From the NCBI RefSeq assembly GCF_018323885.1, contig NZ_AP024585.1:868001-932000 (forward strand): DNA of 64,000 nt, in the 5' to 3' direction. Positions 16,914 to 33,611 of the stretch are shown in pieces; positions within the stretch are counted from its first letter, which is position 1, and each line of letters opens with the position of its first letter. Position numbers and translations under genes: made by a program. The stretch is from Citrobacter amalonaticus. Lineage in GTDB: Bacteria; Pseudomonadota; Gammaproteobacteria; Enterobacterales; Enterobacteriaceae. The notes under the pieces are model-generated. The model searched no databases. It was given only the letters and a program-made list of their open reading frames with translations, and was not told the DNA's origin.

Positions 16914-16922
16914 GTTTATCCC

Positions 16923-17831
16923 TTACGCTAAGTTAAAATCATGGATCAGTTGGGTAATCGCCTGTCGATCGACTGTGTTAAGCACCCAGCCAGGACGGCG
17001 ACAGTAGTCGCTGGCGATAATACCGCGCTGCATCAGCAGCGTTTTTTCCGCCTGAATGATGTATTCGCAATGGCTCATCCAGCGCTGAATAAACGGCAAC
17101 AGTTGCTGGTGCAAAGCCTGCGCCTGCTCAACTTCGCCTGCTTGCCAGTGGCGATAAATCTGCACATACACCTCGGTAAACGAACAGCCGGGCATCACAC
17201 CTTTGCCGCCCGCGTCCAGCATTTGCAACATATACAAACCAGCATAGCCGTTCAGAACGCAGGCTTGTGGCGCATGACGCAGGAATTCGCGGGTGTATTC
17301 CACAGGTGGGTTGCACTCGATTTTAAATACCGCATGTGGATAACGTTCCGCCACGGCGGCGAGCTGTTCCGGCGTAATCGGCAACCCGGTTTCGCCTGGC
17401 GCATATTGCACTATCACCGGAATATCAACGGCTTCCAGTACCGTGTAGATATGTGCCTGAATCGCCTGAGGGCTGGGCGAGAGAAAAAACGGTGGCAGCA
17501 GCATCAGTGCATCGGCACCCAGCGCCTGATAGCGCTTTGCCCGCTTGATAGCAATTTCTGTACTGTGATCCGTCACGGAAAAGGCGCGATACAGCGAACT
17601 ACCCGCCAGGGTGCCGACCATCAGTTGCGCCAGACGATCACGCTCGCTGTCATCCAGCTTGGGAAATTCACTGGCGATGCCAAACAGCGTTGCCCCATTC
17701 GCGCCGCTGGTGGCGAGATGTTCCAGCAGGCGAACAAAGCTGCGTTCGTCGATCTCGCCCTGCGGTGTAAACGGCATGGCGACAATAGGATTCACGCCGA
17801 TGATGTCTGCGGCGGTGTATTGCGTACTCAT
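16923..17831 (-). CDS. DapA/NanA-family aldolase (probable 2-keto-3-deoxy sugar acid aldolase)
   Basis: A 302-residue class I aldolase of the dihydrodipicolinate synthase / N-acetylneuraminate lyase family. The N-terminal strand [17 protein letters not shown], the phosphate/carboxylate-loop GIASEFPKL (replacing the usual GTTGE), the catalytic Tyr in VIVQYAPGE (about 140) and the Schiff-base Lys in AVFKIECNP (about 168) can be seen. It would cleave a 2-keto-3-deoxy acid to pyruvate plus an aldehyde, or dehydrate it. The start overlaps the dehydratase stop as ATGA. True DapA is excluded by context and divergent motifs. The exact substrate is unknown. Confidence 0.75.
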
Positions 17832-19540
17832 TCCATCTCCTCCCTGTCGGCCAGTACCGCGCCCTGTGCAGCGGGCAGCGCCCAGCGGCGATAAAGGCGT
17901 AGAAAACCGCGTGGCACTTCTTTATAGACCGGCTTCCAGTTTTCACGGCGTTGGGTGAGAGTCTTTTCATCAACATGCAGAGTGAGCAAACGTGTTGGGA
18001 TGTCGATGGAGATTTCATCGCCATCCGCTACCAACCCCAGTGCACCGCCTTCCGTGGCTTCCGGGGAAATATGGCCGACGAACAGACCACGGTTAGAACC
18101 CGAGAAACGTCCATCGGTGATCAGCGCGCACGTATCTGAGAGTCCCATTCCTTCGAGGCACTTCATCGGTTTATACATTTCCGGCATGCCAGGCCCGCCT
18201 TTGGGGCCTTCGTAGCGGAGCACCAGCACGCTGCCCGGCTGAATATTTCCTGACATGATGGCGTCGACCGATTCCTGTTCGCTGTTGAATACTACCGCCG
18301 GGCCACGGAAGGTCATCAAATTTTCAGGGACGGCGGCGGGTTTCACTACGCAGCCCAGTGGTGACAGATTGCCATGCAGAACGGCTACGCCTGCTTCACT
18401 GCGTACCGGGATTGCCAGCGAACGAATGACTTCCGGACGCGTGGTTTTGTGTCCTTCCGCCAACAGTTCTGCTTTGGTTTTTCCGACCACGGTCAGCGCA
18501 TCGCGGTTCATCAGCGCAGCAATTTCATGCTCAACGGCGCGAACGCCATCCGCTTCCCAGAAATCGATCATGTCATGTTCCGAAGCCGGATAGAGCGACG
18601 CGACCAGCGGCACCTGATGGCTAAGTTTGTCAAAAGCGGAGAGAGGCAAGTGCCCCAACTCTGCTTCGTAATGAATAGCCTGAAGATGGAGAATTGCGTT
18701 GGTGGAGCCGCCGGTCGCCAGCAGATAGACCATGGCGTTATGAATGGATTCTGGCGTGATTATCTGGCGCGCGTTAATTCCTTCGCGCACCAGTGTCACG
18801 GCCTGCTTTCCGGTTTCTACTGCACAGTCGCGTCGTTCCTGCGAAATGGCGGGCAACGTGCTGCTGCCCGGCAGGCTCATACCCAGCACTTCCGCGATAC
18901 AGCACATGGTGTTCGCTGTGCCGTACATGGTGCAGGAACCCGGGCCAGGCTCGGCGATATTTTCGATGTGGGCAAACTCTTCTTCGGTGATTTCGCCGCG
19001 TTTTTTCCAGCCGATGGCTTCCGTGACGATATTGCCGTCCCAGTGCTTGCCCTTGTATTCTGCAGGGTACATTGGGCCACCGTTAACCATAATGGCCGGA
19101 ATATCCAGACGCGCGGCGGCCATCAGCATGGCAGGCACGATTTTGTCACACGAACCAAGTAACACCATGCCATCAAAGCGGTGAGCGCGCATCATGCTCT
19201 CAATCGACATAGCGATCACTTCACGGGCAGCGAGAATATAGCGCATCCCCAGATGCCCTTCGGCAATACCGTCGCAGGGGGCAATAGTGCCGAAGACCAT
19301 CCCTACGCCACCTGCTTCGTCGATGCCTTTCAGCACGTTTGCCGTCAGTTCATTGAGATTGGCATGTCCGGCGGTGGCATTGGTGTAGCTGTTCACCACG
19401 GCAATCACCGGACGACGCAGTTGTTCGTCCGTATGGCCCATGGATTTGTAGAGTGCGCGCTTTAACGCGCCGTCATCACCCTCGAGGATGGAGCTGAAAT
19501 GCGTGCCGCAACTGGCACATCCTCCACATTCACTCTTCAT
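17828..19540 (-). CDS. IlvD/Edd-family sugar-acid dehydratase
   Basis: A 570-residue Fe-S dehydratase that would turn an aldonate into a 2-keto-3-deoxy acid. Family blocks are visible: [16 protein letters not shown] (about 44-59), [12 protein letters not shown] with cluster Cys131, [12 protein letters not shown] with Cys203, and the C-terminal [10 protein letters not shown]. The first cluster Cys of [2Fe-2S] members is Gly58 here, as in [4Fe-4S] IlvD. Unusually the N-terminus is C5-x2-C8-x2-C11. I chose the ATG at 19540 because it has AAGAGAG just upstream; ATGs at 19555/19558 and 19588 lack a site. It takes the place that DgoD (enolase superfamily) holds in E. coli dgo. True valine/isoleucine IlvD is unlikely in this setting. 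Confidence 0.82.
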
Positions 19541-19560
19541 AGCACTCTCTTTCATCATGA

Positions 19561-20916
19561 TTAATTGGTGTGTTGGGAAACGTCGCACCGCCCATTGAAT
19601 TGTTCAGGGCGCGGCTGACGTTTTGGGTTGGCAAGCCGGGCGGGTAACAGCAGGATCAGCGGCACGACGAGTAGCAGGAAACCGGCAAGAATGTACAGCC
19701 CGCCATCGGTGCTGCCGGTAGTGTCTTTCAGCCAGCCCAGCACTGTAGGACCAAAGAATCCGGCGAGGTTACCGACAGAGTTCACCAGTGCAATCCCTGC
19801 GGCGGCGGCCGTTCCGGAAAGCATCGCGCCCGGCAGGCTGATATAGGTTGGGATAAGCGCAAGCGTCCCGGACATGGCAAGACAGATCCACGCCATCATC
19901 CAGAAGGTGGAACCGCTGCAATAGGCGCTGAGCGCCAGACCCACGCAGCCGATCAATGCTGGAATGGCGATGTGCCAGCGGCGTTCCTGTTTAAGATCGG
20001 AGTGGCGGCTGTTCCACACCATAAATGCCGCGCCAAATACGTAGGGCAGCGCCGCCAACAGCCCAATGTGCAGGTCATCGCTGATGCCGGAACTTTTGAT
20101 GATCGACGGCAGCCAGAAGTTGATGCCGTAATAGCCAATGTTGAAGCTGAAGAAAATCAGCGCCAGCAGCCAGACATAGCCGTTGCGGAACATGGCGCTT
20201 AACGTACTGTTGGCTTTACCCGCGCTGGCCTGCTCCCGATTGTTGGCATCGCGCGCCAGGTCGGTGAGAATGACCTGCTTTTCAGCATGGCTCAGCCATT
20301 TGGCGGACTTCACATCGTTGTCGAGATAGCGCAGCACCACGAAGGCCAGCACAAATGAAGGGATGGCTTCGACCAGGAACAGCCACTGCCAGTTATGCAG
20401 GCCGTCCACACCTTCAAACAGTTTCAGGATAAGGCCGGAAAGCGGACTGCCAATAATCGTCGACAGCGGTGTAACCAGAATAAACAGCCCCAGCGTGCGT
20501 GCCGAGCGCCATGACGGGAACCACAGCGTCAAATAGAACACGATCCCCGGGAAGAAGCCCGCTTCCGCCACACCGAGCAGGAAACGCAGCACGTAAAACT
20601 GTGTTGGCGTGGTGACGAAGATCATCCCGGCGGAAAGGATAGCCCACGTGGCCATAATACGGGCTATCCAGAAGCGCGGGCCAAAGCGCTGCATCAGGAG
20701 GTTGCTGGGTAACTCAAACAGAAAGTAGCCGATAAAGAAGATACCCGCGCCAAGTCCATACACCGTATCGCTGAAATTCAGCGCATCCTGCATGTGCAGT
20801 TTGGCGAACCCAACGTTGACGCGGTCGAGATAGGCAAAGAAATAGCAGAGGATCAAAAACGGGATCAGTCTGCGCGTAACTTTGCGGTAAACGCTGTCTT
20901 CAGTAGTCGTTGTCAT
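19561..20916 (-). CDS. MFS anion:cation symporter, sugar-acid permease type
   Basis: A 451-residue major facilitator of the ACS family (phthalate/galactonate/glucarate permeases). The first helix segment ([25 protein letters not shown], residues about 15-39, with the family D-R-x-N-x-G-F/A motif) and twelve hydrophobic spans are visible. It most likely imports a sugar acid such as galactonate with protons, feeding the dehydratase directly. It lies 14 bp after the GalP-like gene. DgoT of E. coli belongs to the same family. Confidence 0.85.
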
Positions 20917-20930
20917 TTTTGTGCTCTCGC

Positions 20931-22346
20931 TTAGTTAACCGCCGGGCGGTTTTCAGGCTGAGGGATGTCACGCTGTCCGATATCGCGAAGTGCAGCGCCG
21001 CTCATCAGATTGCGTTCGATATGTTCCAGAGAGATATTTTTGGTTTCAGGGACAAACAGAATGGTCAGGCCGATACAGATAACGTTGAGCACGCCATACA
21101 GCCAGAAGGTATTTGGGCTGCCGATAGTGTCGATAAGCGTCAGGAACGTTGCGCCGATGATCATGTTGGCGATCCAGTTCGCCATGGTGGAACAGGTGAC
21201 GCCGAAATCACGTCCGGCAAGCGGTTGGATCTCCGAGCACAACACCCAGATCAGCGGGCCTGCGCTCATCGCAAAACCGGTGATAAAGATCAGCAGTACG
21301 GCAACGGCGACATATTGTTCAGTCAGGCCAGCGATCCCGCTGTAGAACATATAACCGAGGATCCCCATGCATATCGCCATCACGGCATAACCCAGTTTCA
21401 GTATTGGCTTGCGACCCCAGCGATCCACCAGACCAATGGCGATAAACGTGGCTAAAACGTTGGTCAATCCGGCGATCACCGTGCCCCACATTTGCTCATG
21501 AACGGTAGCGAAACCGGCAATCTCAAAAATCTTTGGCGCGTAGTACATGATGACGGTCATGCCGGTGAACTGCTGCATAAACTGCAGCAGAATTCCCAGG
21601 CCGGTTGAGCGACGGAAATGGCGGTTATTGCGAAATAACTGCCAGCCGCGCTGTTTCATCTTCACGCTTTCCCGAATCTGATCCAGTTCATCTCTGGCCT
21701 CGCGTTGGCTGTTACGCAGCAGACATAGCACTTTTTCCGCCAGCGCGTGCTTGTCTTTCATCGCCAGCCAGCGAGGACTTTCCGGTAACGTCAGCACGCC
21801 AATAAACAAAATGATCGCCGGGAAGGTGATCACGCCAAGCATCCAGCGCCAGTGACCGCCTCCACTTAACAGAGTGTCGGAAATAAAGGCGGCCAGAATG
21901 CCGATGGTGATCATCAGTTGATAAAGAGAAATCATGCTGCCGCGGATGTTTTCCGCTGCGATTTCAGACAGGTACAGCGGCGCGGTGAAAGAGGCAACGC
22001 CCACCGCCAGCCCAAGAATAAAGCGAGAAATGGCAAGCACTTCCATGCTGGCTGAAAACGCGCAGCCGACGGAGCCGATAATAAACAGCAATGCGCCGAG
22101 CAGCAGGCTTTTACGACGACCGAGCGCAGAGGACATCGGGCCGCTGCCCAGCGCGCCGAGTGCCGCACCGAACATCATGATGCTGACCACGATTTCCTGT
22201 TGGTGGCTGCTGAGCTGAAATTCCTGGGCGAGAAACGGCAGCGCGCCCGCGATAACGCCCATATCCAGACCAAACAGCAGTCCTGCCAGGGCCGCCAGGA
22301 AGCAGACGATAAGTGCCTGCCGGTTGAGAGAAGAAGATGTCGTCAT
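20931..22346 (-). CDS. MFS sugar:H+ symporter (GalP/AraE/XylE type)
   Basis: A 471-residue inner-membrane sugar porter with twelve spans. Diagnostic motifs of the family are GLLFGLDMGVIAGAL in helix 1, SALGRRKSLLLG after helix 2, PESPRWLAM at the end of helix 6, LQFMQQFTGMTVIMYYAPKIF (residues about 260-280) in helix 7, DRWGRKP, and PETKNISLE at the C-terminus. GalP and AraE carry hexoses or pentoses of galacto/arabino configuration. A free-sugar porter in the same operon as lactonase and SDR implies that oxidation occurs inside the cell. Confidence 0.88.
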   Translation of the reverse strand: MTTSSSLNRQALIVCFLAALAGLLFGLDMGVIAGALPFLAQEFQLSSHQQEIVVSIMMFGAALGALGSGPMSSALGRRKSLLLGALLFIIGSVGCAFSASMEVLAISRFILGLAVGVASFTAPLYLSEIAAENIRGSMISLYQLMITIGILAAFISDTLLSGGGHWRWMLGVITFPAIILFIGVLTLPESPRWLAMKDKHALAEKVLCLLRNSQREARDELDQIRESVKMKQRGWQLFRNNRHFRRSTGLGILLQFMQQFTGMTVIMYYAPKIFEIAGFATVHEQMWGTVIAGLTNVLATFIAIGLVDRWGRKPILKLGYAVMAICMGILGYMFYSGIAGLTEQYVAVAVLLIFITGFAMSAGPLIWVLCSEIQPLAGRDFGVTCSTMANWIANMIIGATFLTLIDTIGSPNTFWLYGVLNVICIGLTILFVPETKNISLEHIERNLMSGAALRDIGQRDIPQPENRPAVN

Positions 22347-22370
22347 AACATTACCTTTCTTATTACCCGG

Positions 22371-23237
22371 TCAGAGCCTGAAGCGGCGCTCAGGCATGCC
22401 TGTGTAGGGGGTTTTTATACGGATAACTGCACCGTCGAAACGACCAGGATTGGGCATTCCGTCGCGTGCGGATGTAATAAAAAGATCGGAAAGTTCAGGA
22501 CCGCCAAACGTACAACTGCTGGGTTGGCAAACGGGTAGCGGCAGGTCATAGAGCGGCGTCATGGTGGTTTGCTTCAACGCAGCAACGGCCAGCAAAGACG
22601 ATCCCCAGCGAGCGTTTATCAACAGGCCATCGGTGGTTAACGCCGAACCGTCCGGAATGCCGGGAACGCAGTAGGTCTGCTGGATGGTCAGTGCATTGGC
22701 CGTTTCTTTTGCACAATGAATTTGATGACGAAGAGAATCAGCAAACCAGACATAGTCGTCATACCATCGAAGCGTGTTGGGCACCTGCTGTGCGCCCAGC
22801 ATCTTTTTCGCTTCACCACCCGCGGCATCCAGCCGATACCACGTGCCAGAGGTCTCTATCGCCTTTGGATCCATCGTGCTGAACCACAGCGATCCGTCTG
22901 GCGCTATCGTCGCTTCATTGGGACGCTTCCCTTTTTCCGTTTCTGGCCATGGGGAAAGTAATGTTTTAGCGAGGTTTACGTAGTCATAACACCAGATCCC
23001 GCTTTGACTTACCGCAATGAACACGTCCTGAAGCGTGGTTAACAGCACGGCGCTGGTAAACACGGGCATCTCGTGTATTTCAGTACGTTGAGCCTGCGGC
23101 CAGTAGCGCAGCAGTTTTCCCGCCAGAATGTCGACCCACAACAGAGAAGCGCTGCGATCGCACCAGATCGGCGTTTCGCCAAGCTGTGCCCGGTAGTCGC
23201 TAACACAACGCAGGTTGTCTGCCAGCAAGCGGTTCAT
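22371..23237 (-). CDS. SMP-30/gluconolactonase-family sugar lactonase
   Basis: A 288-residue six-bladed beta-propeller hydrolase. Family features are LGETPIWCDRSASLLWVDI near the N-terminus (metal Glu of the GE-x-P motif), NEATIAPDGSLWFSTMD (Asn metal ligand), VPNTLRW and GIPDGSALTTDG (Asp ligand). It would open the lactone made by the SDR dehydrogenase. The ATG at 23237 is 2 bp after the aldolase stop; the longer frame from 23258 overlaps that gene and is not preferred. Confidence 0.88.
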   Translation of the reverse strand: MNRLLADNLRCVSDYRAQLGETPIWCDRSASLLWVDILAGKLLRYWPQAQRTEIHEMPVFTSAVLLTTLQDVFIAVSQSGIWCYDYVNLAKTLLSPWPETEKGKRPNEATIAPDGSLWFSTMDPKAIETSGTWYRLDAAGGEAKKMLGAQQVPNTLRWYDDYVWFADSLRHQIHCAKETANALTIQQTYCVPGIPDGSALTTDGLLINARWGSSLLAVAALKQTTMTPLYDLPLPVCQPSSCTFGGPELSDLFITSARDGMPNPGRFDGAVIRIKTPYTGMPERRFRL

Positions 23238-23239
23238 CG

Positions 23240-23884
23240 TTATTGCACCTGCTCCCATGCCTGGCGGTATGCGCCGGCGCGTTTCGTCAGCTCATCCATC
23301 GGCATTCCAGCCTGATAAAGTGCACCACCCAGCCCGAAACCGTTGGCTCCGGCCTGCACGTAGCGCTGCATTTGCTCCGTATCCGGACGGATCCCGCCCA
23401 CGGGCAGGCAGGCCAGGTTACGGGGCAGAACGGCGCGAAAGGCTTTCAGTAATTCAGGCGAAAACTGCTCTGCGGGGAAAAACTTCAGCGCGCTGGCACC
23501 TGCATGCAGTGCGGCAAAGGCCTCTGTCGGCGTTATGACACCTGGCAAACTCACCATGTTGTGATGACGAGTACGCTGGATGACGGCGGCATCGGCATTC
23601 GGAGAGACGATAAGCTCGCCGCCTGCCGCCGCCACCTCATCCACTTGTTGCACGGTCAGTACGGTGCCTGCGCCCACTCTGGCGCGGTCACCCGCAACCT
23701 GGCGCATCAATTGGATGGACTCCAGTGCCGATGGGCTGTTCAGCGGGACTTCCAGCCAGCGGAATCCCGCTTCAATCAGAATTTCTGCGGCGCTTACCGC
23801 ATCCTTTGGCGTGATGCCGCGAAGAATCGCGATCAGCGGCAGCGGTTCTTCTCGCCAGTGTTCAAAAAAAATCTCAGGGGTCAT
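23240..23884 (-). CDS. dgoA: 2-dehydro-3-deoxy-6-phosphogalactonate aldolase
   Basis: A ~214-residue class I KDPG/KDPGal aldolase (E. coli DgoA is 205). Motifs are PLIAILRGI at the start (catalytic Glu/Arg region), GFRWLEVPLNSP, VGAGTVLTVQQVDEV, the LIVSPNAD block, and the Schiff-base Lys in ASALKFFPAEQF. It cleaves KDPGal to pyruvate and glyceraldehyde 3-phosphate. The ATG at 23884 overlaps the dgoK stop as ATGA; the 40-residue upward extension runs inside dgoK. The galactonate assignment rests on the DgoK partner and strong similarity to DgoA. Confidence 0.88.
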   Translation of the reverse strand: MTPEIFFEHWREEPLPLIAILRGITPKDAVSAAEILIEAGFRWLEVPLNSPSALESIQLMRQVAGDRARVGAGTVLTVQQVDEVAAAGGELIVSPNADAAVIQRTRHHNMVSLPGVITPTEAFAALHAGASALKFFPAEQFSPELLKAFRAVLPRNLACLPVGGIRPDTEQMQRYVQAGANGFGLGGALYQAGMPMDELTKRAGAYRQAWEQVQ

Positions 23885-24783
23885 GCGTGTGTCTCCGGAA
23901 GCTGTGCATAAAAGGCGGCCATTCCCCGCAGGAAGCAGGTATCGCCATCGGCAGTGCGTAAAGGGATGTCCAGGGCCTGTGCGGCGAGCAGATAGCGCTC
24001 GCAAAGGGAAGGTGAGCCAACAACCCAGCTCTCTTTTTCTGCTGACATCGTGGAAAGCTCATAGCCAATCAACAACCCTGAGAGATAGCTGTGAACCGCA
24101 CTGAGTGCGATTTCGCCATTCAGACGACGGGTACGGGCAGAAAAAATGAGATGGTTGAAGGGGATGCCCGCGTTGGCGGTCAACACGCCTTCCACAAATG
24201 CGGTGCTGTTATCCTGCTGTTCAGGTAACGCGCGACCCAGCAATGAATGCTGGCTGAGCAGTGAAAAGAGTTCGCCCGTCATCAGCGTGGAGAAGTGAGT
24301 AATTTCACCTTTCCGCAACAGCGCGTGCTTGCTGTGAGTCCCCGGCAAAATAGCGTGATGCTCATGAGCCGGGTGAAGGGCATTGAGCCCCAGCAGCTGG
24401 ACTTCTTCACCGCGCATAACATCGGGAAGGCCATAGGCACTGGCCGAGCTAACGCCGGGCACAATCCACGCTGGGCTTCCCCATGGCGTAGAAAGGGGAA
24501 GCGCGTTTTTCCGCAGCTTAACGGCATTCGCCGGAGCGGCGACATACGGTACTTCCTGCCACCCTTGCTGTGAACCGACCATGCCCGCCATAACGATGGG
24601 TAACGCACCCAGCTCAGTCAGCCAGGGAGCCAGATGCTGGTGAAGCGTAGCGGCAAACGCGTCTTTAGACAGGGTAAGCAGACCGCAAGGCTGTGCCACA
24701 GATGCGATAACCTGCTGTTCATTGAGCAAAAATGCACGAAAGTTGGTCGTGCCCCAGTCGACGGCGATCCAGTGTTTTTTCAT
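23881..24783 (-). CDS. dgoK: 2-dehydro-3-deoxygalactonokinase
   Basis: A ~300-residue sugar kinase of the DgoK family that phosphorylates 2-keto-3-deoxygalactonate at C6. The ATP-binding start IAVDWGTTNFRAFLL (residues about 4-18), the VMAGMVGSQQGWQEVPYVAAP block, and LPGTHSKHALL are typical. E. coli DgoK is 292 residues. The ATG at 24783 (MKKHWIAVDW) fits the family; the frame open to 24819 would run through the operator sites. It is the first structural gene of the operon. Confidence 0.9.
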   Translation of the reverse strand: MKKHWIAVDWGTTNFRAFLLNEQQVIASVAQPCGLLTLSKDAFAATLHQHLAPWLTELGALPIVMAGMVGSQQGWQEVPYVAAPANAVKLRKNALPLSTPWGSPAWIVPGVSSASAYGLPDVMRGEEVQLLGLNALHPAHEHHAILPGTHSKHALLRKGEITHFSTLMTGELFSLLSQHSLLGRALPEQQDNSTAFVEGVLTANAGIPFNHLIFSARTRRLNGEIALSAVHSYLSGLLIGYELSTMSAEKESWVVGSPSLCERYLLAAQALDIPLRTADGDTCFLRGMAAFYAQLPETHA

Positions 24784-24786
24784 TTC

Positions 24787-24820
24787 ATGTAATACAAATA
24801 TGTTAATCTTGTAATACAAG
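24787..24820. promoter_or_regulatory. Two DgoR-type operator palindromes before dgoK
   Basis: TGTAATACA occurs twice, at 24788-24796 and 24810-24818, exactly 22 bp apart (two helical turns). The right copy is part of a perfect palindrome CTTGTA-A-TACAAG (24808-24820). FadR-subfamily GntR proteins bind sites with a GTnnAC-like core, and E. coli DgoR binds TTGTA-N-TACAA-type repeats as I recall. The sites sit immediately before the dgoK start, so bound repressor would block the structural operon. Confidence 0.75.
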
Positions 24821-24881
24821 AATGCTAGAGCAAAAAAACACCACGTTCTGTGAGAGAGATCGAAATTATGTCAGTGAAGGA

Positions 24882-25613
24882 TCAAAGAAGGTGATCAACG
24901 CAGGCTGGACGATCCTGCCAGATACTTTTTCCGGCGGCATGCAGCAGAATACTGCGCATAAATGCCCTTGCGTCATCTGCCTGGCGCAGGCGAATGGCTT
25001 CAAACAATTGAAAATGCTCATCCACCGCCGTTTTAGTTTCATGCAGGTCTTCTTCCAGCGTCTGACGGAATGAGAGTACCATCGCGGCGCTAAGCGCATT
25101 GCCCAGCGCCAGCAGGAAAGGATTGTGTGTGGCCCGGAGTAGCGCCTGGTGAAAGGCCACATCGCCGGCTTCAAATTTGGCTTTTTCAGCTTCTAACTGA
25201 CCGCTTCGCATCAGTGTGAGCGCATCTTCCATCGCGGCCAGATCGTGACCATTGGCATTCAGCGCCGCAAGCGTGGCGACATTGGGTTCAAACATCAGAC
25301 GCGTGACCATCAGTTGTTCCACCAGTTCGGCATCGACTTTACCTGTCGCCAGCCAGTTCAGGACATCGATATCCAGTAAACTCCACTGATCGCGGGCATT
25401 GACGGTACTGCGCTTTTTCGCCTGAATGGAGATAAGCCCTTTGGCGGCGAGTGTCGCCAGGGCATTGCGCAGCGAGGTACGCGAGACGTTGTACTCTGTC
25501 GCCAGTTCATTTTCGCCAGGTAGCGCGCTGCCTGCTGCCAGTTCGCCGCGCAGAATGCGCCCGGCAAGATGCTGAGTAACAGATTCGGAGAGACTGGTCT
25601 GCACGACTTTCAT
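24882..25613 (-). CDS. GntR/FadR-family regulator, DgoR-like
   Basis: A 243-residue regulator with an N-terminal winged helix (residues about 10-70: HLAGRILRGELAAGSALPGE, then NVSRTSLRNALATLAAKGLI) and an all-helical FadR-type FCD effector domain (about 90-230), where D, H and H metal ligands are expected (EAGDVAFHQALLRATHN). E. coli DgoR (229) has the same layout and senses D-galactonate. It is transcribed in the same direction as dgoK, 98 bp upstream of it, so it may be both autoregulated and the controller of the operon. Confidence 0.85.
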   Translation of the reverse strand: MKVVQTSLSESVTQHLAGRILRGELAAGSALPGENELATEYNVSRTSLRNALATLAAKGLISIQAKKRSTVNARDQWSLLDIDVLNWLATGKVDAELVEQLMVTRLMFEPNVATLAALNANGHDLAAMEDALTLMRSGQLEAEKAKFEAGDVAFHQALLRATHNPFLLALGNALSAAMVLSFRQTLEEDLHETKTAVDEHFQLFEAIRLRQADDARAFMRSILLHAAGKSIWQDRPACVDHLL

Positions 25614-26665: not shown

Positions 26666-26681
26666 GGTTAATCGATTAATC
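26666..26681. promoter_or_regulatory. LacI-type operator before the cupin isomerase genes
   Basis: GGTTAATCGATTAATC, a near-perfect 16-bp palindrome 43 bp before the first cupin gene. Its exact reverse complement is at 32444-32459, in front of the oppositely oriented isomerase/PTS operon. The central CG step is typical of LacI-family operators. Confidence 0.8.
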
Positions 26682-26723
26682 TGCTAATCTGATTCTGTTG
26701 TTCTCCTCGGGCCGGAGACACAT

Positions 26724-27287
26724 ATGAATCTTACTTTTATCCAGCCACCGCAGGTGGAATGGGCGAGTGGCGCGTTGTCAAAAGGACCGCTGTTACGTAA
26801 ATCAACCCGCATTCAGGATCTCATTGAGGTTTTTGCCGATGAGCCTGCCCGGCAACAGTTGGCGGGCGAACACGTGGTGTATGACGTTGAGATGCTGGCG
26901 ACCTCTTCGGCGGAAGGCGAACTCTATACGGGCGTGACGCATCTTTATCCCGGACATGTCGGCGGTGAATACTTTATGACCCGCGGGCATTTCCATGCGC
27001 GCCGTGAACAGGGCGAAGTCTATTTTGGCCTGCGCGGAAAGGGACTTTTGCTGCTGCAAAATGAGCACGGGCAGGCGCGACTGGAAAACGTTTTCGCCGG
27101 ATCCATTCATATCATCCCAGGTTTTACCGCACACCGCTTAATCAACACCGGAAATGAGGTGCTCTCCGCGCTTGCAGTCTGGCCTGCTATCGCCGGACAT
27201 GATTATGCGGCGCTGGCGAAGGGGTTCACCCTCAGGGTCTTTGAGGAAAATCAGCAGATTCAAGTAAGGGAGGTGCAGAATGGTTGA
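26724..27287 (+). CDS. Archaeal-type cupin phosphoglucose isomerase family protein (1)
   Basis: A 187-residue cupin of the glucose-6-phosphate isomerase (GPI_cupin) family, otherwise known from Pyrococcus and some bacteria. The metal ligands line up with those of the Pyrococcus furiosus enzyme: H89-x-H91, E98 and H137 (in GHFHARREQGEVYFGL and IIPGFTAHRLI). The TGVTHLYPGHVGGEYF block before them is also typical. It presumably interconverts an aldose 6-phosphate and a ketose 6-phosphate. The next gene overlaps its end by 8 bp. Since the cell has its own Pgi, a different sugar phosphate is likely. Confidence 0.85.
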   Translation: MNLTFIQPPQVEWASGALSKGPLLRKSTRIQDLIEVFADEPARQQLAGEHVVYDVEMLATSSAEGELYTGVTHLYPGHVGGEYFMTRGHFHARREQGEVYFGLRGKGLLLLQNEHGQARLENVFAGSIHIIPGFTAHRLINTGNEVLSALAVWPAIAGHDYAALAKGFTLRVFEENQQIQVREVQNG

Positions 27288-28062
27288 CTCTGCCTCTCTT
27301 TATGGTCTGGATATGACCGTGCATCGTCATCCGCTTGGGTTCAGTTATGGGGATGACGTGACCGGGCCTATGCCGGAAATTCGCCGACTCGATCAGATTC
27401 GTGCTTCGCTGCGTGATCCGCAGTGTGAGGGACCGGAAGAGGTATACGCTATCGCGATGGACGTGGCGCGTCTGCAGGATCGCGAGGAGCTAAAAAAACG
27501 CATGCTGTTGTTCGGTGTGGTGACCTATGCCGCGGGTCGGTTGGGTGAAGAACCGATTCGTAGTCAGGGACATGTGCATCGTGTGAGTCAGCACAGCGGG
27601 TGGTCTCCGCCAGAGTTGTATGAGATCTGGCAGGGGAAAGCGATCATCTACATGCAGGAATATGTTGGGGACGATCCTGGTCGCTGCTTTGCGGTGATCG
27701 CAGGACCCGGTGAAAAAGTGCTGGTGCCGCCCGGTTGGGGACATGCGACGATATCCGCCGATCCGAATGAGCCGTTAACCTTTGGCGCGTGGTGCGATCG
27801 GGAATATGGTTTTGAATATGAGGCTGTGCGGGCGCATAAAGGGCTGGCGTGGTATCCGTTATTACAGGGTGACCACGTCATCTGGCAGCACAACCCGCGC
27901 TATATTGCCGGGCGATTGCAGGCCGTCACGCCTCGTCAGTATACGGAGTTTTCACTGACTTCAGCGCCAATCTATCAGCAATTTATATCCGACCCGGGGC
28001 GCTTTCAGTTTATCTCTCGCCCGGATAAATGCGCAGGGCTGTGGCAGAACTTCCATCCATGA
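27280..28062 (+). CDS. Cupin isomerase family protein (2), divergent GPI_cupin
   Basis: A 260-residue second cupin overlapping the first gene by 8 bp. The pattern is that of a GPI-type cupin: G-H98-V-H100, then ELYEIWQGKAIIYMQE (Glu ligand about 112-115), then VPPGWGHATIS with His155, followed by FGAWCDREYGFEYE. It is longer than copy 1, with extra N- and C-terminal segments of about 70 and 75 residues. The two proteins may form a hetero-oligomer or act on different intermediates. A separate function cannot be read from sequence. Confidence 0.75.
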   Translation: MVDSASLYGLDMTVHRHPLGFSYGDDVTGPMPEIRRLDQIRASLRDPQCEGPEEVYAIAMDVARLQDREELKKRMLLFGVVTYAAGRLGEEPIRSQGHVHRVSQHSGWSPPELYEIWQGKAIIYMQEYVGDDPGRCFAVIAGPGEKVLVPPGWGHATISADPNEPLTFGAWCDREYGFEYEAVRAHKGLAWYPLLQGDHVIWQHNPRYIAGRLQAVTPRQYTEFSLTSAPIYQQFISDPGRFQFISRPDKCAGLWQNFHP

Positions 28063-28085
28063 AAAACCGGGGCATTGCCCCGGTA
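28062..28085 (-). terminator. Terminator of the PTS operon, between convergent operons
   Basis: ACCGGGGCAATGCCCCGGT on the minus strand, followed by a T-run (TTTTTC). It lies between the convergent cupin and PTS operons and reads best as the end of the leftward one. Confidence 0.75.
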
Positions 28086-28102
28086 GTTCCGTCTTTTCGC
28101 GA

Positions 28103-28921
28103 TTAACCTGCAAACAGACCTGTTGCGACGCCAAGCGCGGCCAGTATCAGCAGTAAAACCATCGCTTTTACCGGTGAGACACCGCGTTTTGCCATCAGAT
28201 ACCAGGTACCGAGAACGACGACCAGCGGCAGCAATTGCGGGAAAATGCCATCCAGCATCTGCTGAACATGGATATTCACACCATCTTTGGTAATAAACTC
28301 CATCCCGGTTCCAAGCTTCACGTAGCTGGCTGCGACGCCCCCCATAACGAAAACACCTAACAGCGATAAGGCTTCGCGCAGACGAGTGGACTTGCTGCTC
28401 ACCAGTATTTCTACCGAGCCGGAGCCCATTTTGTAGCCTTTCAGAAACAAGAACCATGAGCCGGGAATGATGATCGCAAGCCAGGCGACGGTATAAAACA
28501 AGGGACCGAGGATATTGCCGCCTGCCGCCAGCGCCATGCCGATACTGAGCAGGATGGGGATCAACATCCCAGGGATCATGGAATCACCGATCCCGGCAAT
28601 GGGACCCATTAAACCCACCTTAAGGGTGTTGATCGTCTCTCCGTCGATCGGCTCCCCGTTCGCTTTTTTCTCTTCCAGCCCCAGCGCCATTCCATTCACA
28701 ATGGCGCCAATCTGGGGTTCGGTATTGTAGAACGAGGCGTGTCGACGCAACATTTCGGTTCGTTGTGCGGCATCGGGATAGAGCTTTTTCGCCACCGGCA
28801 ACATGCTCAGACAAAATCCAAAAGATTCCAGACGTTCAAAACTCATCGACGATAAGTTATGCATCATCCAGGCCCGCCAGCAGCGGCGAAGATCTTTACG
28901 GGTCAGCGTACGTTCTTCCAT
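28103..28921 (-). CDS. PTS system, mannose/fructose/sorbose family, IID component
   Basis: A 272-residue membrane protein. The IID hallmarks are an amphipathic N-terminal part (LTRKDLRRCWRAWMMHNLSS, about 5-24), the ERLESFGFCLSMLPV block, the GPIAGIGDSMIPG motif (about 120), and C-terminal hydrophobic spans. With IIC it forms the permease that moves the sugar while it is phosphorylated. The ATG overlaps the IIC stop by one base. It is last in the five-gene operon. Confidence 0.93.
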   Translation of the reverse strand: MEERTLTRKDLRRCWRAWMMHNLSSMSFERLESFGFCLSMLPVAKKLYPDAAQRTEMLRRHASFYNTEPQIGAIVNGMALGLEEKKANGEPIDGETINTLKVGLMGPIAGIGDSMIPGMLIPILLSIGMALAAGGNILGPLFYTVAWLAIIIPGSWFLFLKGYKMGSGSVEILVSSKSTRLREALSLLGVFVMGGVAASYVKLGTGMEFITKDGVNIHVQQMLDGIFPQLLPLVVVLGTWYLMAKRGVSPVKAMVLLLILAALGVATGLFAG

Positions 28922-29721
28922 CAGAATTCATCCTCATCATCGCGGGTAACCGACGTCGCGTTTGCAGCCTGCGGCGGTTCCGGCTTGTAGTTATAGTGGA
29001 TCAGCGCCAACAGTGAACCGACGATCACCAGCGCGACCATGTTGAGTTTTAAAAAGACGATGCAGACGAAACCGACGAGGAAGTAGATCAACATGGTGTA
29101 ATTTTTGATGATCTGCTTGAGCAGAATTGCAATCCCGACGGCGGGCAGAATGCCGCCCAGTACGTTCATTGTCGACAACACCATCTTCGGCAGGCTGTCC
29201 ATAAAACCGCTGATGTACTGTGCGCCAAAGTAAACCGCAATAAAGGTGGGCACAAAACGCAGGACAAAGTTTGTCACCTGAGGCCAGATGGCGCTGTTCA
29301 GGTAAATTCCCCGCTCATCGCCCCGATCCAGTGCCGCATCGGCACGATGGTTCCAGAAAGAGTTCAGTACCATCATCGCATTAAATAAGATGGTCCCGGC
29401 AATCCCGATGGTAGCGGCTAAGGCGACCGCGACCTCCGGGCCTTTGCCTGAGAGGATCCCCAATGCAATGGCCGGGTAAGCCACAAAGTTGAGATCGGCA
29501 GGCATTGAGCCGCCGGGCGTGACCATCGCGATATATACTGCCTGAACCGCAACGCCAATCATGATCCCGGTTTTCATGTCACCGAGAATAATCCCGACCA
29601 ACGTGCCGGAAATCAGCGGTCGAGTGATTAAATACCAGCCGCCCGTCAGTCCCAACAGCCAGGGGCTGCTGAGGGCGCCGAGATAACACAGAATGCCAAT
29701 CAACATCGCTTCGATAATCAT
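28921..29721 (-). CDS. PTS system, mannose family, IIC component
   Basis: A 266-residue polytopic IIC subunit. It contains GILCYLGALSSPWLLG, LVGIILGDMKTGIMIGVAVQAVYIA and the conserved G-x-x-x-P-A-D-x-x region (GGSMPADLNFVAYPAIALG). About eight hydrophobic spans can be counted. It follows the IIB gene by 10 bp. Substrate specificity in this family lies largely in IIC/IID, and the sequence does not match ManY, SorA or AgaW closely enough for me to name the sugar. Confidence 0.93.
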   Translation of the reverse strand: MIIEAMLIGILCYLGALSSPWLLGLTGGWYLITRPLISGTLVGIILGDMKTGIMIGVAVQAVYIAMVTPGGSMPADLNFVAYPAIALGILSGKGPEVAVALAATIGIAGTILFNAMMVLNSFWNHRADAALDRGDERGIYLNSAIWPQVTNFVLRFVPTFIAVYFGAQYISGFMDSLPKMVLSTMNVLGGILPAVGIAILLKQIIKNYTMLIYFLVGFVCIVFLKLNMVALVIVGSLLALIHYNYKPEPPQAANATSVTRDDEDEF

Positions 29722-29731
29722 CGTCCGCTCC

Positions 29732-30226
29732 TTATTTCAGCTTCTGGCGCGCATCCTGCCAGCTGTAACAACTGGCATCCGGCACCAGCCGGAATTCAAC
29801 CTGATGCCCGCGCTGCGTCAGCCAGTCAAAGGCGGCGATCTCCTGTGCATTGACTGATTGATTAGGGCCAATTGTCGTGGTGTCGGCGCGCGCACTCATT
29901 GGACCGACGTTAATTTTGCCGTTGGCGTTGTGCAGACTGATACCCGCTTCTTCGATGCGCATCAGCGTGACCGGCGATTTGCCAATCACGAAATAACGTT
30001 TCTCACTGGCGATGACTTTGGGCAGTTTCTCAATCGCGGTGGCGGTATCAAACAACCAGACTTTGGTGTCCTGCACGGCGCCTTTCATCACCGAGGAGAG
30101 CAGGGGATCGGCCGCGACGGCATCGTCAATGGCGACAATGCCATCGCAGGGCAGCTCTTTGGCCCAACGTGTGACGAGCTGCCCATGAATAACGCGGTCA
30201 TCGATACGGACAAAAGAAATACTCAT
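29732..30226 (-). CDS. PTS system, mannose family, IIB component
   Basis: A 164-residue cytosolic IIB subunit. The phosphorylated histidine is H14 in VRIDDRVIHGQLVTRW, the family signature. It accepts phosphate from IIA and hands it to the incoming sugar. It is a separate polypeptide here, unlike the fused IIAB of ManX. The gene starts 11 bp after the IIA stop. Confidence 0.95.
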   Translation of the reverse strand: MSISFVRIDDRVIHGQLVTRWAKELPCDGIVAIDDAVAADPLLSSVMKGAVQDTKVWLFDTATAIEKLPKVIASEKRYFVIGKSPVTLMRIEEAGISLHNANGKINVGPMSARADTTTIGPNQSVNAQEIAAFDWLTQRGHQVEFRLVPDASCYSWQDARQKLK

Positions 30227-30237
30227 AGCGGTTTCCT

Positions 30238-30666
30238 TTAAAAATCATCTGACTGCACGGAAAAAACCGGGGCAGCCTTCGTCAACGTGGGGGCAGTTAA
30301 CGCCAGCAGGGTATCGGCTGCGGCATGGACATCCATGAATGGAAGCACTTCCTCGCTTAACAGCAGCATCGGCAGATTCACTCCTGCCACAACGGCGATG
30401 GGAGGCAACGTTTGTGGTGAAAAAGCATGCTGGCAGGCGACGTTCCACGGCGTGCCACTTTGCATATCGCAGAGCACCAGTACTCCGTCAGCGTGTTGTC
30501 CCGCCTGTGCCAGTACTTCGCTAAAGCGCGTTTTAAACCCTTCGATACCGGCCTGTTCGCTTAGTGTCACGGCGTAAACATGCGGTAATTCGCCGTAAAC
30601 CATGCGTCCGCTGGTAAGAAGCGCTTCCGCCAGAGGACCGTGACTGGCAACAATAATGTGGATCAT
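30238..30666 (-). CDS. PTS system, mannose family, IIA component
   Basis: A 142-residue IIA subunit with the active His9 in IIVASHGPLAEALL. LCDMQSGTPWNVACQ is the usual D-x-x-G-x-x-P block. It accepts phosphate from HPr. It lies 4 bp after the isomerase-like gene, so the five genes are one transcript. Confidence 0.95.
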   Translation of the reverse strand: MIHIIVASHGPLAEALLTSGRMVYGELPHVYAVTLSEQAGIEGFKTRFSEVLAQAGQHADGVLVLCDMQSGTPWNVACQHAFSPQTLPPIAVVAGVNLPMLLLSEEVLPFMDVHAAADTLLALTAPTLTKAAPVFSVQSDDF

Positions 30667-30670
30667 CGGC

Positions 30671-32416
30671 TTATCCTCTTACCCAGGCTTTGATCGTCGC
30701 CAGAGGCTGGTCAACGCTGTCGCCTGAAGGTGAAATTCGGTATTCCCCAACGGCTGCCGGGATGATAAAGGTCTCTGCATAGTGAACGATGAAGGGAGCA
30801 AATGCGCCGCTCGGACTATCGACCACGGCTTGCGCACCTTCGACCAGGTTCAGAACGTTCACACCACCCTGAGTATGGTGTGTCACTGGGGCAGTAAACC
30901 AGTGACGGCGGGTTTCGATAAACTCACGTTCGTGCATCCCGGTTCTTTCTTCCCGCCAGCCGTCCCCTTCAGCAATGGGCTCAATACGGTTGATCAGATT
31001 GTCTTGAACCCATTGTGTATCGCGCTGCCAGTCAATGACTTGTTGACCGTGGTCAAGATGGACAGGACGCGGCAATCCGTCCAGACCCAGACGCCCCCAG
31101 TCCCACAGTTTGAAGGTGAAAATATACGGCGTGGCACTGATCTCCAGGACCATTGTCCCGGCGCCTGAGCAATGGACGGTTCCGGCAGGGATGAGAAAAT
31201 GATCGTGCTTACGGGCAGGGAATTGATTGACAAACCGCTCGTCATCAAATGCTTTCTCGCCTCGTCCCGCCGCGCGTAAATCGTCCAGCATCTCGCCTGG
31301 TACGATCCCGGTTTTTGTGCCCAGGTAGACCACCGCATCTGGCTCTGCTTCAAGGATGTAGTAACTCTCATCCTGGGTATAGTGCATACCAAATTGCTGT
31401 TGGATGTATTCAGTAACCGGATGAACCTGGAAGCTCAGGTTCTGACCGCCAATGGTATCGAGAAAGTCAAAACGAATCGGAAATTCCGCGCCAAAACGAG
31501 CATGAACTTTCTCGCCAAGCAGGGCGCGGGGATACGTCAGCACCAGGTCCTGAGAGGGGATCTCGATCCGCACATGACCAAAACGCAGTAACAGGCTGTT
31601 TTCCTCGGGCACGCAATCAAAACACCACGCGTAGTTGGGCGCTGAGGGATCGAGATCGAATTGTTGTTTCATCCACTGCCCGCCCCAGACGCCAGGGTCA
31701 AAGAAGGGGGCGACGCGAAACGGTTGCGTGGTGGTTTGTTGCAACCCGGCGCGTAGCGCTTCGCCGCTGACCATTGCGGGCGCGCCTGCGACCGTCGTAT
31801 CCAGCAAATAATCAGCGCGTTTGAGCAGCGGCGTTTTGTGCCGGTCAAAGACTCGCCATTCAATAAAAAAGGCGCGTTTATAGCGACGAAGAATATCTTC
31901 ATTCTGGTTTTTTGCGCCCCAGTTACCGAGACCGTCATGACGCATACGCTGTTGAATTTCCCAGCGCGGCAGATCGGCATACACCAACACATCGCCGGGA
32001 TGCGCCAGCGCCGCGCCTGGCCCATATACCACCACGAGACCTTCGGGGATGGCTTCAATCTGTTGACGCATCCGGTTGAGCTTGTCGGGATCAAAAAACT
32101 CATCAAGATGGTGACAGGAGAGAACGCCAAAGACGCGGTCATCGGTCAGATTACGCGCCAACAACTCATGCAGCGCCTGCTCATCCCGTCGCGCGGATTC
32201 AACATTAATCACTACGGTGGCGTTTAGCGCGGCGAAGAGGTGTTGCTCCAGCTCATCCAGTCGCACGCCCGGATAACAATCGATAATCAGTACGGTTTTA
32301 GGCGATTCAGAAACCCGGCTGCGAAGTACCGAATGGACCGACGCCCAGCCTTGCCAGGCCTCGTCGTCATAGCCCTGAACATAAACCTCAGGGAATTTAT
32401 TATAGGTTGTACGCAT
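30671..32416 (-). CDS. Class I mannose-6-phosphate isomerase-like protein with N-terminal extension
   Basis: A 581-residue protein. Residues from about 230 on are a class I phosphomannose-isomerase-like cupin: QNLSFQVHP with Gln330 and His332, Glu350 in TQDESYYILE, and FLIPAGTVHCSGAG with His415 form the expected Zn site. Residues 1-215 have no counterpart in E. coli ManA (391 aa). They recall a nucleotide-kinase fold (TVLIIDCYPGVRLDEL, where a P-loop would be, but the GK[ST] is missing; VVYGPGAALAHPGDVLVYADLP). It probably isomerises the sugar phosphate delivered by the PTS. The role of the extra domain is unknown. Confidence 0.75.
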   Translation of the reverse strand: MRTTYNKFPEVYVQGYDDEAWQGWASVHSVLRSRVSESPKTVLIIDCYPGVRLDELEQHLFAALNATVVINVESARRDEQALHELLARNLTDDRVFGVLSCHHLDEFFDPDKLNRMRQQIEAIPEGLVVVYGPGAALAHPGDVLVYADLPRWEIQQRMRHDGLGNWGAKNQNEDILRRYKRAFFIEWRVFDRHKTPLLKRADYLLDTTVAGAPAMVSGEALRAGLQQTTTQPFRVAPFFDPGVWGGQWMKQQFDLDPSAPNYAWCFDCVPEENSLLLRFGHVRIEIPSQDLVLTYPRALLGEKVHARFGAEFPIRFDFLDTIGGQNLSFQVHPVTEYIQQQFGMHYTQDESYYILEAEPDAVVYLGTKTGIVPGEMLDDLRAAGRGEKAFDDERFVNQFPARKHDHFLIPAGTVHCSGAGTMVLEISATPYIFTFKLWDWGRLGLDGLPRPVHLDHGQQVIDWQRDTQWVQDNLINRIEPIAEGDGWREERTGMHEREFIETRRHWFTAPVTHHTQGGVNVLNLVEGAQAVVDSPSGAFAPFIVHYAETFIIPAAVGEYRISPSGDSVDQPLATIKAWVRG

Positions 32417-32603
32417 TTTCTCTCTCCGTGTTGGCTAATTAAAGATTAATCGATTAACCTTATTTTCATAGGGTGGTTAACGCGATTAACCCGCCATAAT
32501 CAGAAACCAGGGCGGTAAAAAGCTCATCAGCGTGATGAGAATCACACGTACTGGCACATTAGTGAGGTTATTCGATTAACCTTTGCGAGAAACAGGAGAA
32601 GTC
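32417..32603. promoter_or_regulatory. Divergent control region with three LacI-type operators
   Basis: Three palindromes of one family sit in the 187 bp between the divergent isomerase and regulator genes: GATTAATCGATTAACC (32444-32459), GGTTAACGCGATTAACC (32475-32491, one base longer in the centre) and GGTTATTCGATTAACC (32566-32581). The first is 28 bp from the isomerase start and the last is 23 bp from the regulator start. That implies repression of the PTS operon and autorepression. TGAGAATCACACGT near 32536-32549 contains a CRP-like half site. Confidence 0.8.
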
Positions 32604-33611
32604 ATGACAACCATTACCCTGGCGCAGGTTGCGGAACGCGCTGGCGTCTCCACGGCGACCGTGTCGATGGTACTGCGTAATCGGGGGCGTATTTCACAGG
32701 CAACGCGTGAACGCGTACTTAAAGCGCTGGATGATTCTGGCTATGTCTATAACCAGACCGCAGCGAATTTGCGTAATCGCAGCAGCAATCAGGTCGGGCT
32801 CTTGTTGCATGATATTACTAACCCATTTTATGGCGAGATGACGGCGGGGCTCAGTCATGAAATGGAGCGGCACGATCTGCTGTTGTTTCTGGCGAACAGC
32901 GAAGAGTCCGGCGAGCGCCAGCAAAAGTTTGTTGATTCCCTGATGCGCAATAACGCCTGCGGTATGGTGCTCTGCGCGGCGCGGGAAACACCGACCTCGT
33001 TCTTTGAAGCGCTTAAACGGCGTAATATTCCCGCTATCATGGTGGTTCGCCCGCTTAGCGATCCGGACTTTGATTTTGTCGGCACCGATAATTTTCTCGG
33101 GACGCAAATGGCAACGACCCATTTAGTTAAACTGGGGCACAAAAATATCGCCTTCATCGGCGGCAGCCCGAATTCAGGGAGCCGGGCGCAGCGCATTGGC
33201 GGATTTACCAGCACACTACTGGAATATGGCATTTCACCGAATCCGCAGTGGATCGTTGCCACTCAGGCCAGCCAGATTGATGGCGCGAAAGTGGCGGAGT
33301 CTCTGCTGATGCAACATCCACAAATTACTGCCGCGGTGTGTTATCAGGATATTGTGGCATTGGGGGTAATGCAGGCGCTACGTAAAATGGGGCGTGAACC
33401 CGGGCGCGACTTTGCATTAGTCGGGTTCGATGATATTACCGAAGCGGCGTTGGTTCAGCCTGCGCTGACCACCGTGTCGGTCGCGGCAAAAGAGATTGGT
33501 CGTAAGGCGGGAGAGTTACTTTACAGTCGTATTCAGGGGAACGATGAGCCGGCGAAACGCATTATTCTGCCTCCGGCACTGGTGGTCAGAGAATCATGTG
33601 GTTTTCGCTGA
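32604..33611 (+). CDS. LacI-family transcriptional regulator of the PTS/cupin cluster
   Basis: A 335-residue LacI/GalR repressor. The N-terminal helix-turn-helix TLAQVAERAGVSTATVSMVL, the hinge region (VYNQTAANLRNRSSNQVG) and a periplasmic-binding-protein-like core (VGLLLHDITNPFYGEMTAGL to ILPPALVVRESCGF) are all present. It resembles MalI in layout. The ATG at 32604 has AGGAGAAG upstream; the ORF opening at 32583 lies over the operator. Its own promoter and both structural operons carry the same operator, so it is the local repressor. The inducer is probably the sugar or its phosphate. Confidence 0.9.
   Translation: MTTITLAQVAERAGVSTATVSMVLRNRGRISQATRERVLKALDDSGYVYNQTAANLRNRSSNQVGLLLHDITNPFYGEMTAGLSHEMERHDLLLFLANSEESGERQQKFVDSLMRNNACGMVLCAARETPTSFFEALKRRNIPAIMVVRPLSDPDFDFVGTDNFLGTQMATTHLVKLGHKNIAFIGGSPNSGSRAQRIGGFTSTLLEYGISPNPQWIVATQASQIDGAKVAESLLMQHPQITAAVCYQDIVALGVMQALRKMGREPGRDFALVGFDDITEAALVQPALTTVSVAAKEIGRKAGELLYSRIQGNDEPAKRIILPPALVVRESCGFR

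Follow-up and report, generated by a model that had tools for sequence, protein, structure and literature searches.

The stretch of the Citrobacter amalonaticus genome analysed here, hereafter the window, is 64,000 nucleotides long (positions 868001-932000 of contig 1, in a genome of 5.07 Mb) and carries, between rihC and dapB, two convergent operons and a LacI-family regulator, eight genes in all, each intact. They encode a complete mannose-family phosphotransferase system (PTS) together with three proteins resembling sugar-phosphate isomerases, namely a phosphomannose isomerase (PMI)-like protein and two tandem GPI-type cupins, cup1 and cup2. The cluster looks like one regulon controlled by LacI and CRP, binding of the repressor and of CRP being predicted from conserved sites. 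The reading we prefer, to which we give an even chance, is that within this regulon the PTS brings in a hexose, likely of mannose configuration, in the form of its 6-phosphate, that the three predicted isomerases lead to fructose 6-phosphate, and that the cupin pair serves a second hexose phosphate. We infer enzyme activities and PTS substrate from gene content, conservation, co-occurrence, fold and ligand residues. An earlier description, the sequence-only reading, had placed between rihC and dapB the convergent operons, the five-gene PTS-PMI set, the tandem cupins and the LacI regulator; gene families and intact genes confirmed all of this.

The cupin genes lie on the plus strand, cup1 at 26724..27287 (187 residues) and cup2 at 27280..28062 (260 residues), with an 8-base overlap of their reading frames. 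They meet the minus-strand operon PMI-IIA-IIB-IIC-IID at a GC-rich, terminator-like hairpin (28066..28084, unstranded, listed on the minus strand). The latter operon starts with the gene of the 581-residue PMI-like protein (30671..32416) and continues with IIA (30238..30666; PF03610, E 1.1e-17), IIB (29732..30226; PF03830, E 8.9e-37), IIC of the mannose/sorbose family (28921..29721; PF03609, E 6.4e-66) and IID of the mannose family (28103..28921; PF03613, E 2.9e-87). His9 of IIA, in the motif SHGPLA, and His14 of IIB, in DDRVIHGQ, stand in their usual contexts, and we take them to be the phosphorylated residues. The lacI gene (32604..33611, plus strand) is divergent to the PMI gene. When read as a protein of 342 residues starting at TTG 32583, its product scored 317.3 bits with model NF007449 (cut-off 310), which places it by score in the MalI subfamily; the start codon used here was picked by hand. 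Neither malX nor malY lies beside it.

Conservation of this arrangement was examined with a cup2 profile scan, using one genome per species. The best 80 of 278 relatives comprised 66 enteric loci and 14 loci from other phyla; gene order was the reason for counting L090, from an assembly titled Chryseobacterium, as enteric. All 80 loci have cup2 by construction, and many of them are close relatives. In the enteric set, cup1 was found in 66/66 loci, the PMI-like gene and IIA to IID in 65/66, and LacI in 64/66. All three isomerases are together in 65 of the 66 enteric loci. cup2, IIB, IIC and IID are strongly conserved between genera and often occupy the same position, between rihC and dapB. Starting from the PMI-like gene, 36 of 295 sampled genomes of the window's family were positive. 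The best match of the PMI-like protein is a Citrobacter koseri record (90%). Thirty-one of these 36 loci were fetched with their flanks, and both cupins were present in 26 of the 31 (exceptions: L059, L063, L066, L067 and L069). L066, from genome G054, is decayed: its PMI gene contains stops, its IID gene is split, and no cupin was found in the stretch. A megablast comparison with 20,395 E. coli RefSeq records gave no match to the PTS-PMI stretch, which therefore receives no annotation from E. coli K-12; the module was found in one contig titled E. coli (L087) and in Escherichia whittamii (L086). The cluster is not a chance assembly, it is a conserved unit.

Its genes also share predicted regulatory sites. 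The palindrome GGTTAATCGATTAACC occurs with one mismatch upstream of cup1 (26666..26681, plus strand, GGTTAATCGATTAATC), of the PMI-PTS operon (32444..32459, plus strand) and of lacI (32566..32581, plus strand), where it would mediate autoregulation. These are predicted LacI operators by palindrome match and conservation. The window contains three matches at up to three mismatches, when 0.18 were expected, and in the whole 5.07-Mb genome the three cluster sites are the only ones reaching one mismatch. A two-mismatch match was found at genome position 1602784, and 29 further ones at three mismatches (11 with the reversed pattern). The site at 1602784 was rejected as a regulon member, as it lies inside open reading frames with no recognised sugar gene downstream. 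Among the enteric loci, a site with at least 14 of the 16 bases was present in 62/66 cup1 upstream regions, 62/64 for PMI and 64/64 for lacI, versus a background of 25 in 970 random stretches that can themselves overlap true sites. In L095 and L106, the two exceptions for PMI, further genes separate PMI from the site. No site of this quality was found in the 14 loci of other phyla. In the gap between PMI and lacI, a CRP-like site with one mismatch is found at 32531..32546 (plus strand). The count of such sites over the window showed no excess over chance, and the site was accepted because it is conserved: the exact sequence TGTGA-N6-TCACA was present in the PMI-lacI gap of 43/60 enteric loci, and a match with at most two mismatches in 60/60, versus 37 of 600 random stretches.

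In the 14 loci of other phyla, cup1 was found 13 times, the PMI-like gene 12 times, and all three isomerases 11 times. No IIA, IIB, IIC or IID was found in any of them (0/14), and a recognisable ROK kinase was present in 8/14. In Persicobacter and Acidobacteria (L142), orders such as cup1-ROK-PMI-cup2 have a kinase standing in place of the enteric PTS; in L187, outside the 80 loci, cup1, ROK, PMI (56% in a direct search) and cup2 likewise lie in one row. The PTS version is not limited to enterics, since L186 (Bacillota), also outside the 80, reads GntR-IIA-IIB-IIC-IID-PMI-cup2. Scored by genomes, cup2 was found in 6/398 Pseudomonadota, all in the window's own family, in 2/296 Bacteroidota, and in 22/398 Bacillota. 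The latter comprise 2 close and 20 distant relatives; the distant ones were not counted as module members, and 13 of them were fetched for reading. Across phyla, the isomerase set is the constant part and the uptake route the variable part, a ROK kinase often replacing the PTS.

We next consider the three isomerases, beginning with the PMI-like protein. Its metal ligands Q330, H332, E350 and H415 are intact in a class I PMI fold, and a structure comparison gave matches to the PMI fold, this one domain filling the match list. The N-terminal region (residues 1 to about 225) is an alpha/beta domain with no family assignment, which is fused to the PMI domain across phyla; residues 1-227 had no sequence match in the PDB (best E 1.3). 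Orthologues lie beside alpha-mannosidase genes: next to glycoside hydrolase (GH) family GH92 and a sugar kinase annotated as N-acetylglucosamine kinase in Hymenobacter, next to GH92, a ROK kinase and also GH38 in Parabacteroides, and next to GH92 and a ROK kinase (fused) in Flammeovirga. In a tree of the family, module and non-module proteins were intermixed, and the hypothesis of separate clades was rejected (AU test, p 4e-35). The groups were defined after a first tree had been seen, both trees being intermixed; the Flammeovirga row and, as long or redundant rows, L039, L040, L186, L152 and the second L099 copy were left out of the second. Since alpha-mannosidase loci contain the same family, and the tree does not separate the two sets, mannose 6-phosphate is the likely substrate, and the protein is probably a true mannose-6-phosphate isomerase. 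The sequence-only reading had held a 2- or 4-epimer, a rare ketose or an aldose not handled by ManA or Pgi to be plausible; given the alpha-mannosidase loci, the PMI-like protein by itself is no evidence for such an odd sugar. In Superficieibacter electus (L099), two diverged PMI copies were observed, one belonging to an MngA/MngB-like operon and the other to the PTS operon, and both operons have the operator upstream.

A link with mannosides is seen in other relatives as well. A 15/16 operator precedes MngA/MngB-like genes in L047/L106, L095, L099, L112, L114 and L140, and operators matching at 13 to 15/16 lie between LacI and PMI or between mtlD and PMI in L033, L063, L067 and L069. For the GH38 proteins of L047, L063 and L041 the best model was mannosylglycerate hydrolase, and for the fructose-type PTS proteins of L099, L033 and L041 it was the mannosylglycerate transporter, all scores being below cut-off.

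Some of these loci have further features of their own. In Citrobacter amalonaticus L041 (115-6524; the stretch is cut off at its upstream end), an MngA-like PTS, GH38 and a sucrose-phosphorylase-like protein, below its model cut-off, lie beside lacI, and in Pseudocitrobacter L105 (1851-6466), GH38 and a sucrose-phosphorylase-like protein lie between rihC and cup1; one guess at the substrate is a mannosyl-glucosyl compound. L067 and L069 are enteric mannose-family PTS clusters with a mannitol-1-phosphate-dehydrogenase-like protein, the 580-residue PMI, an AGE-family protein, a dehydrogenase and a fructose-type PTS. They carry a similar operator although their LacI is only 36-37% identical.

The cupins were compared with archaeal-type phosphoglucose isomerases (PGIs). 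Sequence matches of cup1 in the PDB were the PGIs of Thermococcus litoralis and Pyrococcus furiosus (best E 4e-38), and its ligands H89, H91, E98 and H137 align with H88, H90, E97 and H136 of the P. furiosus enzyme. Hansen is said to have defined, in 2005, two cupin-PGI signatures, TX3PX3GXEX3TXGHXHX6-11EXY and PPX3HX3N. The first is present in the window's cup1 and matched, as a regular expression, 90 of 110 cup1 hits, some genomes being included twice. The second is absent from the window's cup1, which reads PGFTAHRLIN with G for the second P, and the exact PP occurs in 14/110 hits. In module cup1, His158 is kept and Tyr152 is replaced by Trp in 8/8 aligned rows (by pattern, W in at least 96/110 hits); both residues are described as critical in PMC6627849. 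In Tenebrionibacter (L052/L124), cup1 is much diverged (38% identity). With most of the signature kept, cup1 is PGI-like.

cup2 has departed further from these enzymes. The cupin-PGI fold and the ligands H98, H100, E112 and H155 are intact, and the predicted model (pLDDT 93) gave, among its 12 best PDB matches (E 2e-12 to 3e-11), 11 P. furiosus or T. litoralis PGI entries, the remaining one being the engineered protein 3sxw. At the positions of P. furiosus T71, T85, N140, Y152 and H158, module cup2 carries V, S, S, C and F, one of 8 aligned rows retaining N140. Neither TXGHXH nor PPX3HX3N is found: among 125 hits, which include some genomes twice, 111 have SQGH, and 110 of these 111 have S for N. 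The other 14 hits keep T and N and are, by motif, the distant Bacillota proteins and a Salmonella plasmid protein. Housekeeping-like relatives keep T71, T85 and N140 in 8/8 aligned rows, without Y152 and H158. cup2 is thus a defined subfamily, which need not be a PGI, and its reaction may be a new isomerase activity. A candidate cup1-cup2 gene fusion, P0132, was given no weight, being a single sequence on a 3.1-kb contig that may be a frameshift. In Bacillota loci L188-L200, the distant long GPI-type cupin was seen near PGM, GAPDH, PFK, GalU or polA-like genes, named by eye; it is probably the housekeeping PGI of those bacteria.

Put together, the preferred reading would work as follows. Phosphoryl groups from phosphoenolpyruvate would pass via IIA and then IIB to the sugar at IIC/IID, yielding internal hexose 6-phosphate. 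The PMI-like enzyme would turn mannose 6-phosphate into fructose 6-phosphate, and cup1 and cup2 together would convert a second hexose 6-phosphate, poorly or not handled by Pgi, to the same product. Both routes would end at fructose 6-phosphate, so that no dedicated kinase or aldolase would be needed. To this hub the same operator would add, in relatives, MngA/MngB-like mannoside transport and hydrolysis, or a GH1 6-phospho-glycosidase; in other phyla the PTS is often replaced by a ROK kinase accompanied by either a sugar porter or an ABC transporter. The second, distinct hexose phosphate is proposed for the cupins because two extra PGI-like cupins are unusual, which a local second PMI is not. 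A dedicated sugar system of this kind, with PTS phosphorylation followed by isomerisation and neither kinase nor aldolase, had been put forward in the sequence-only reading, and the conserved module with its shared predicted operators supports it.

Several observations weigh against this reading. The same genome encodes a full-length Pgi, ManA and five IID genes besides that of the cluster, six in all; given these, the cluster would be superfluous for plain mannose or glucose. Mannoside use is not direct for this strain, as its cluster contains no glycosidase, and GH38 is found in only 8/66 enteric loci. In L105, no operator of at least 12/16 was found within 330 bases before GH38. Finally, the cup1-cup2 pair occurs without the 580-residue PMI, in the stretch read, in Parabacteroides L072, Cohnella L148 and Acidobacteria L153, beside a beta-galactosidase-like GH2 enzyme (L072) or an FGGY kinase and a dehydrogenase (L148), and not beside mannosidases. 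The strain of L072 has the 580-residue PMI on another replicon (L036). Given the redundancy of Pgi, ManA and the IIDs and the residue changes of cup2, a non-standard hexose phosphate is at most plausible, and to that extent the odd-sugar proposal stands.

A bolder view of the cupins, which we hold to be unlikely though not greatly so, is that cup1 and cup2 perform a cross-phylum two-step isomerisation of a hexose with undescribed catabolism, supplied in enterics by the PTS and in other bacteria by ROK or FGGY kinases. cup2 would then be a new cupin catalytic type, either a ketohexose-6-phosphate 3-epimerase or a C2-C3 carbonyl shifter. An alternative in which the module handles C3-epimer hexoses (allose, allulose, altrose) seems to us unlikely. 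cup1 would convert allose 6-phosphate to allulose 6-phosphate, cup2, as a metal-dependent ketohexose-6-phosphate 3-epimerase, would give fructose 6-phosphate, and the PMI would act on mannose or altrose 6-phosphate. The company of cup1 and cup2 in 66/66 enteric and 13/14 other loci suggests two consecutive steps, the conserved changes in cup2 and the Tyr152 to Trp change in all 8 aligned module cup1 rows agree with it, and the redundancy of Pgi and ManA argues for a sugar outside their range. The Cohnella cup2 and cup1-type cupin, with ABC transporter, dehydrogenase and FGGY kinase genes, would suit a polyol-to-ketose route, and allose kinase was the second-best model for the ROK protein of L072, far below cut-off. 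Against this, no allose- or allulose-specific gene was recognised in the clusters read. To our knowledge, GH38, GH92, GH1 and GH2 are not known for allosides, and we know of no epimerase of this cupin type.

It is also possible, if unlikely, that both cupins are ordinary PGIs, local and perhaps mannose-6-phosphate-tolerant, for glucose 6-phosphate supply, and that the operon is a second mannose system of the glucomannan type. cup1 does retain the cupin-PGI ligands and the first signature, and the neighbours of the distant Bacillota cup2-like proteins (PGM, GAPDH, PFK or GalU-like, read by eye) would fit. There is also a precedent in B. subtilis gmu, with a local PMI duplicating ManA, according to PMC11669640. 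Two different PGIs would however be redundant beside a full Pgi, and module cup2 is changed at all five positions listed above, three of which (T71, T85 and N140) its housekeeping-like relatives keep. Very improbable, in our view, is a decaying or selfish sugar operon without current function. The broken relative in G054 and the diverged Tenebrionibacter cup1 are what it would predict, but the window copy is intact, and cup2, IIB, IIC, IID, the operators and the CRP-like site are conserved.

Known systems resemble the cluster in part. The curated models of E. coli mngAB, the 2-O-alpha-mannosyl-D-glycerate PTS and hydrolase, are the best matches of the relatives' fructose-type PTS and GH38 proteins, and the product of mngAB is mannose 6-phosphate. 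The window's cluster has, by contrast, neither GH38 nor an MngA-type PTS, its PTS being of the mannose family, and the relatives' proteins fall below the MngA and MngB cut-offs. ManXYZ with ManA is similar in that a mannose-family PTS feeds mannose 6-phosphate to a PMI. It differs from the window, where IIA and IIB are separate genes, the PMI belongs to a second lineage and has an additional N-terminal domain, two cupins and a dedicated LacI are present, and ManA is encoded elsewhere in the genome. The P. furiosus and T. litoralis PGIs share fold and metal ligands with cup1 and cup2, whereas cup2 has lost several signature residues and a classical Pgi is encoded in the window's genome as well. 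The glucomannan operon gmuBACDREFG of B. subtilis combines a PTS with a local mannose-6-phosphate isomerase, gmuF beside manA, as described in PMC11669640. Salibacterium L151 resembles it in part: next to its two cupins lie PMI, GH1, a PTS EIIC and a GntR-like regulator. Unlike the window, with its mannose-family PTS and LacI, gmu has no cupin PGIs; conversely, no cellobiose-type PTS, GH1, ROK, GntR or mannanase gene of the gmu type is among the genes of the window's cluster.

A Salmonella enterica IncHI2A plasmid (NZ_CP110658.1) carries an island, L074, in which an enteric PTS gene adjoins a GPI-cupin gene, as in the window. This cupin is 24% identical to cup2, with T85 and N140 kept, and its partner enzymes are different. 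The order is PtsG-like IIBC, GPI-type cupin, HxlB and HxlA, then glucitol-type PTS genes, so that a plasmid-borne PTS is linked here to enzymes of the ribulose-monophosphate pathway.

The cluster is a new combination of known protein families, undescribed as far as searches of open-licence literature show; the sequence-only reading knew of no characterised enteric PTS pathway with this set, and no description turned up among the titles and abstract openings listed from open-licence PMC articles. The module is common to dozens of enteric species, with relatives of its isomerase set in several other phyla, and one substrate assignment would extend to many genes whose present annotation says no more than glucose-6-phosphate or mannose-6-phosphate isomerase. 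Should cup2 catalyse another reaction, these annotations are wrong across phyla, and a new sugar-phosphate chemistry is added to the metal-dependent cupins. Should all three enzymes prove to be plain PGI and PMI, one would have to ask why a second set is kept by bacteria that already have Pgi and ManA.

Two neighbourhoods are worth recording. In Parabacteroides distasonis L072, a PF12876 cellulase-like protein matching PDB entry 3gyc (392 residues, E 6e-281), the GH2 enzyme and SusC/SusD-type genes adjoin cup1-ROK-cup2; this polysaccharide locus could reveal the cupins' sugar. In the window itself, the region beside rihC at 16131-25613 (minus strand) was read from its translations. It encodes a short-chain dehydrogenase/reductase, a DapA-like aldolase, an IlvD/EDD-family dehydratase, a major facilitator superfamily transporter, an AraE/GalP-like sugar porter and an SMP-30 lactonase, with DgoA-, DgoK- and GntR-like genes, and looks like an oxidative sugar-acid island of the De Ley-Doudoroff type. 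In several Buttiauxella loci, DgoA, DgoK and GntR homologues likewise adjoin rihC.

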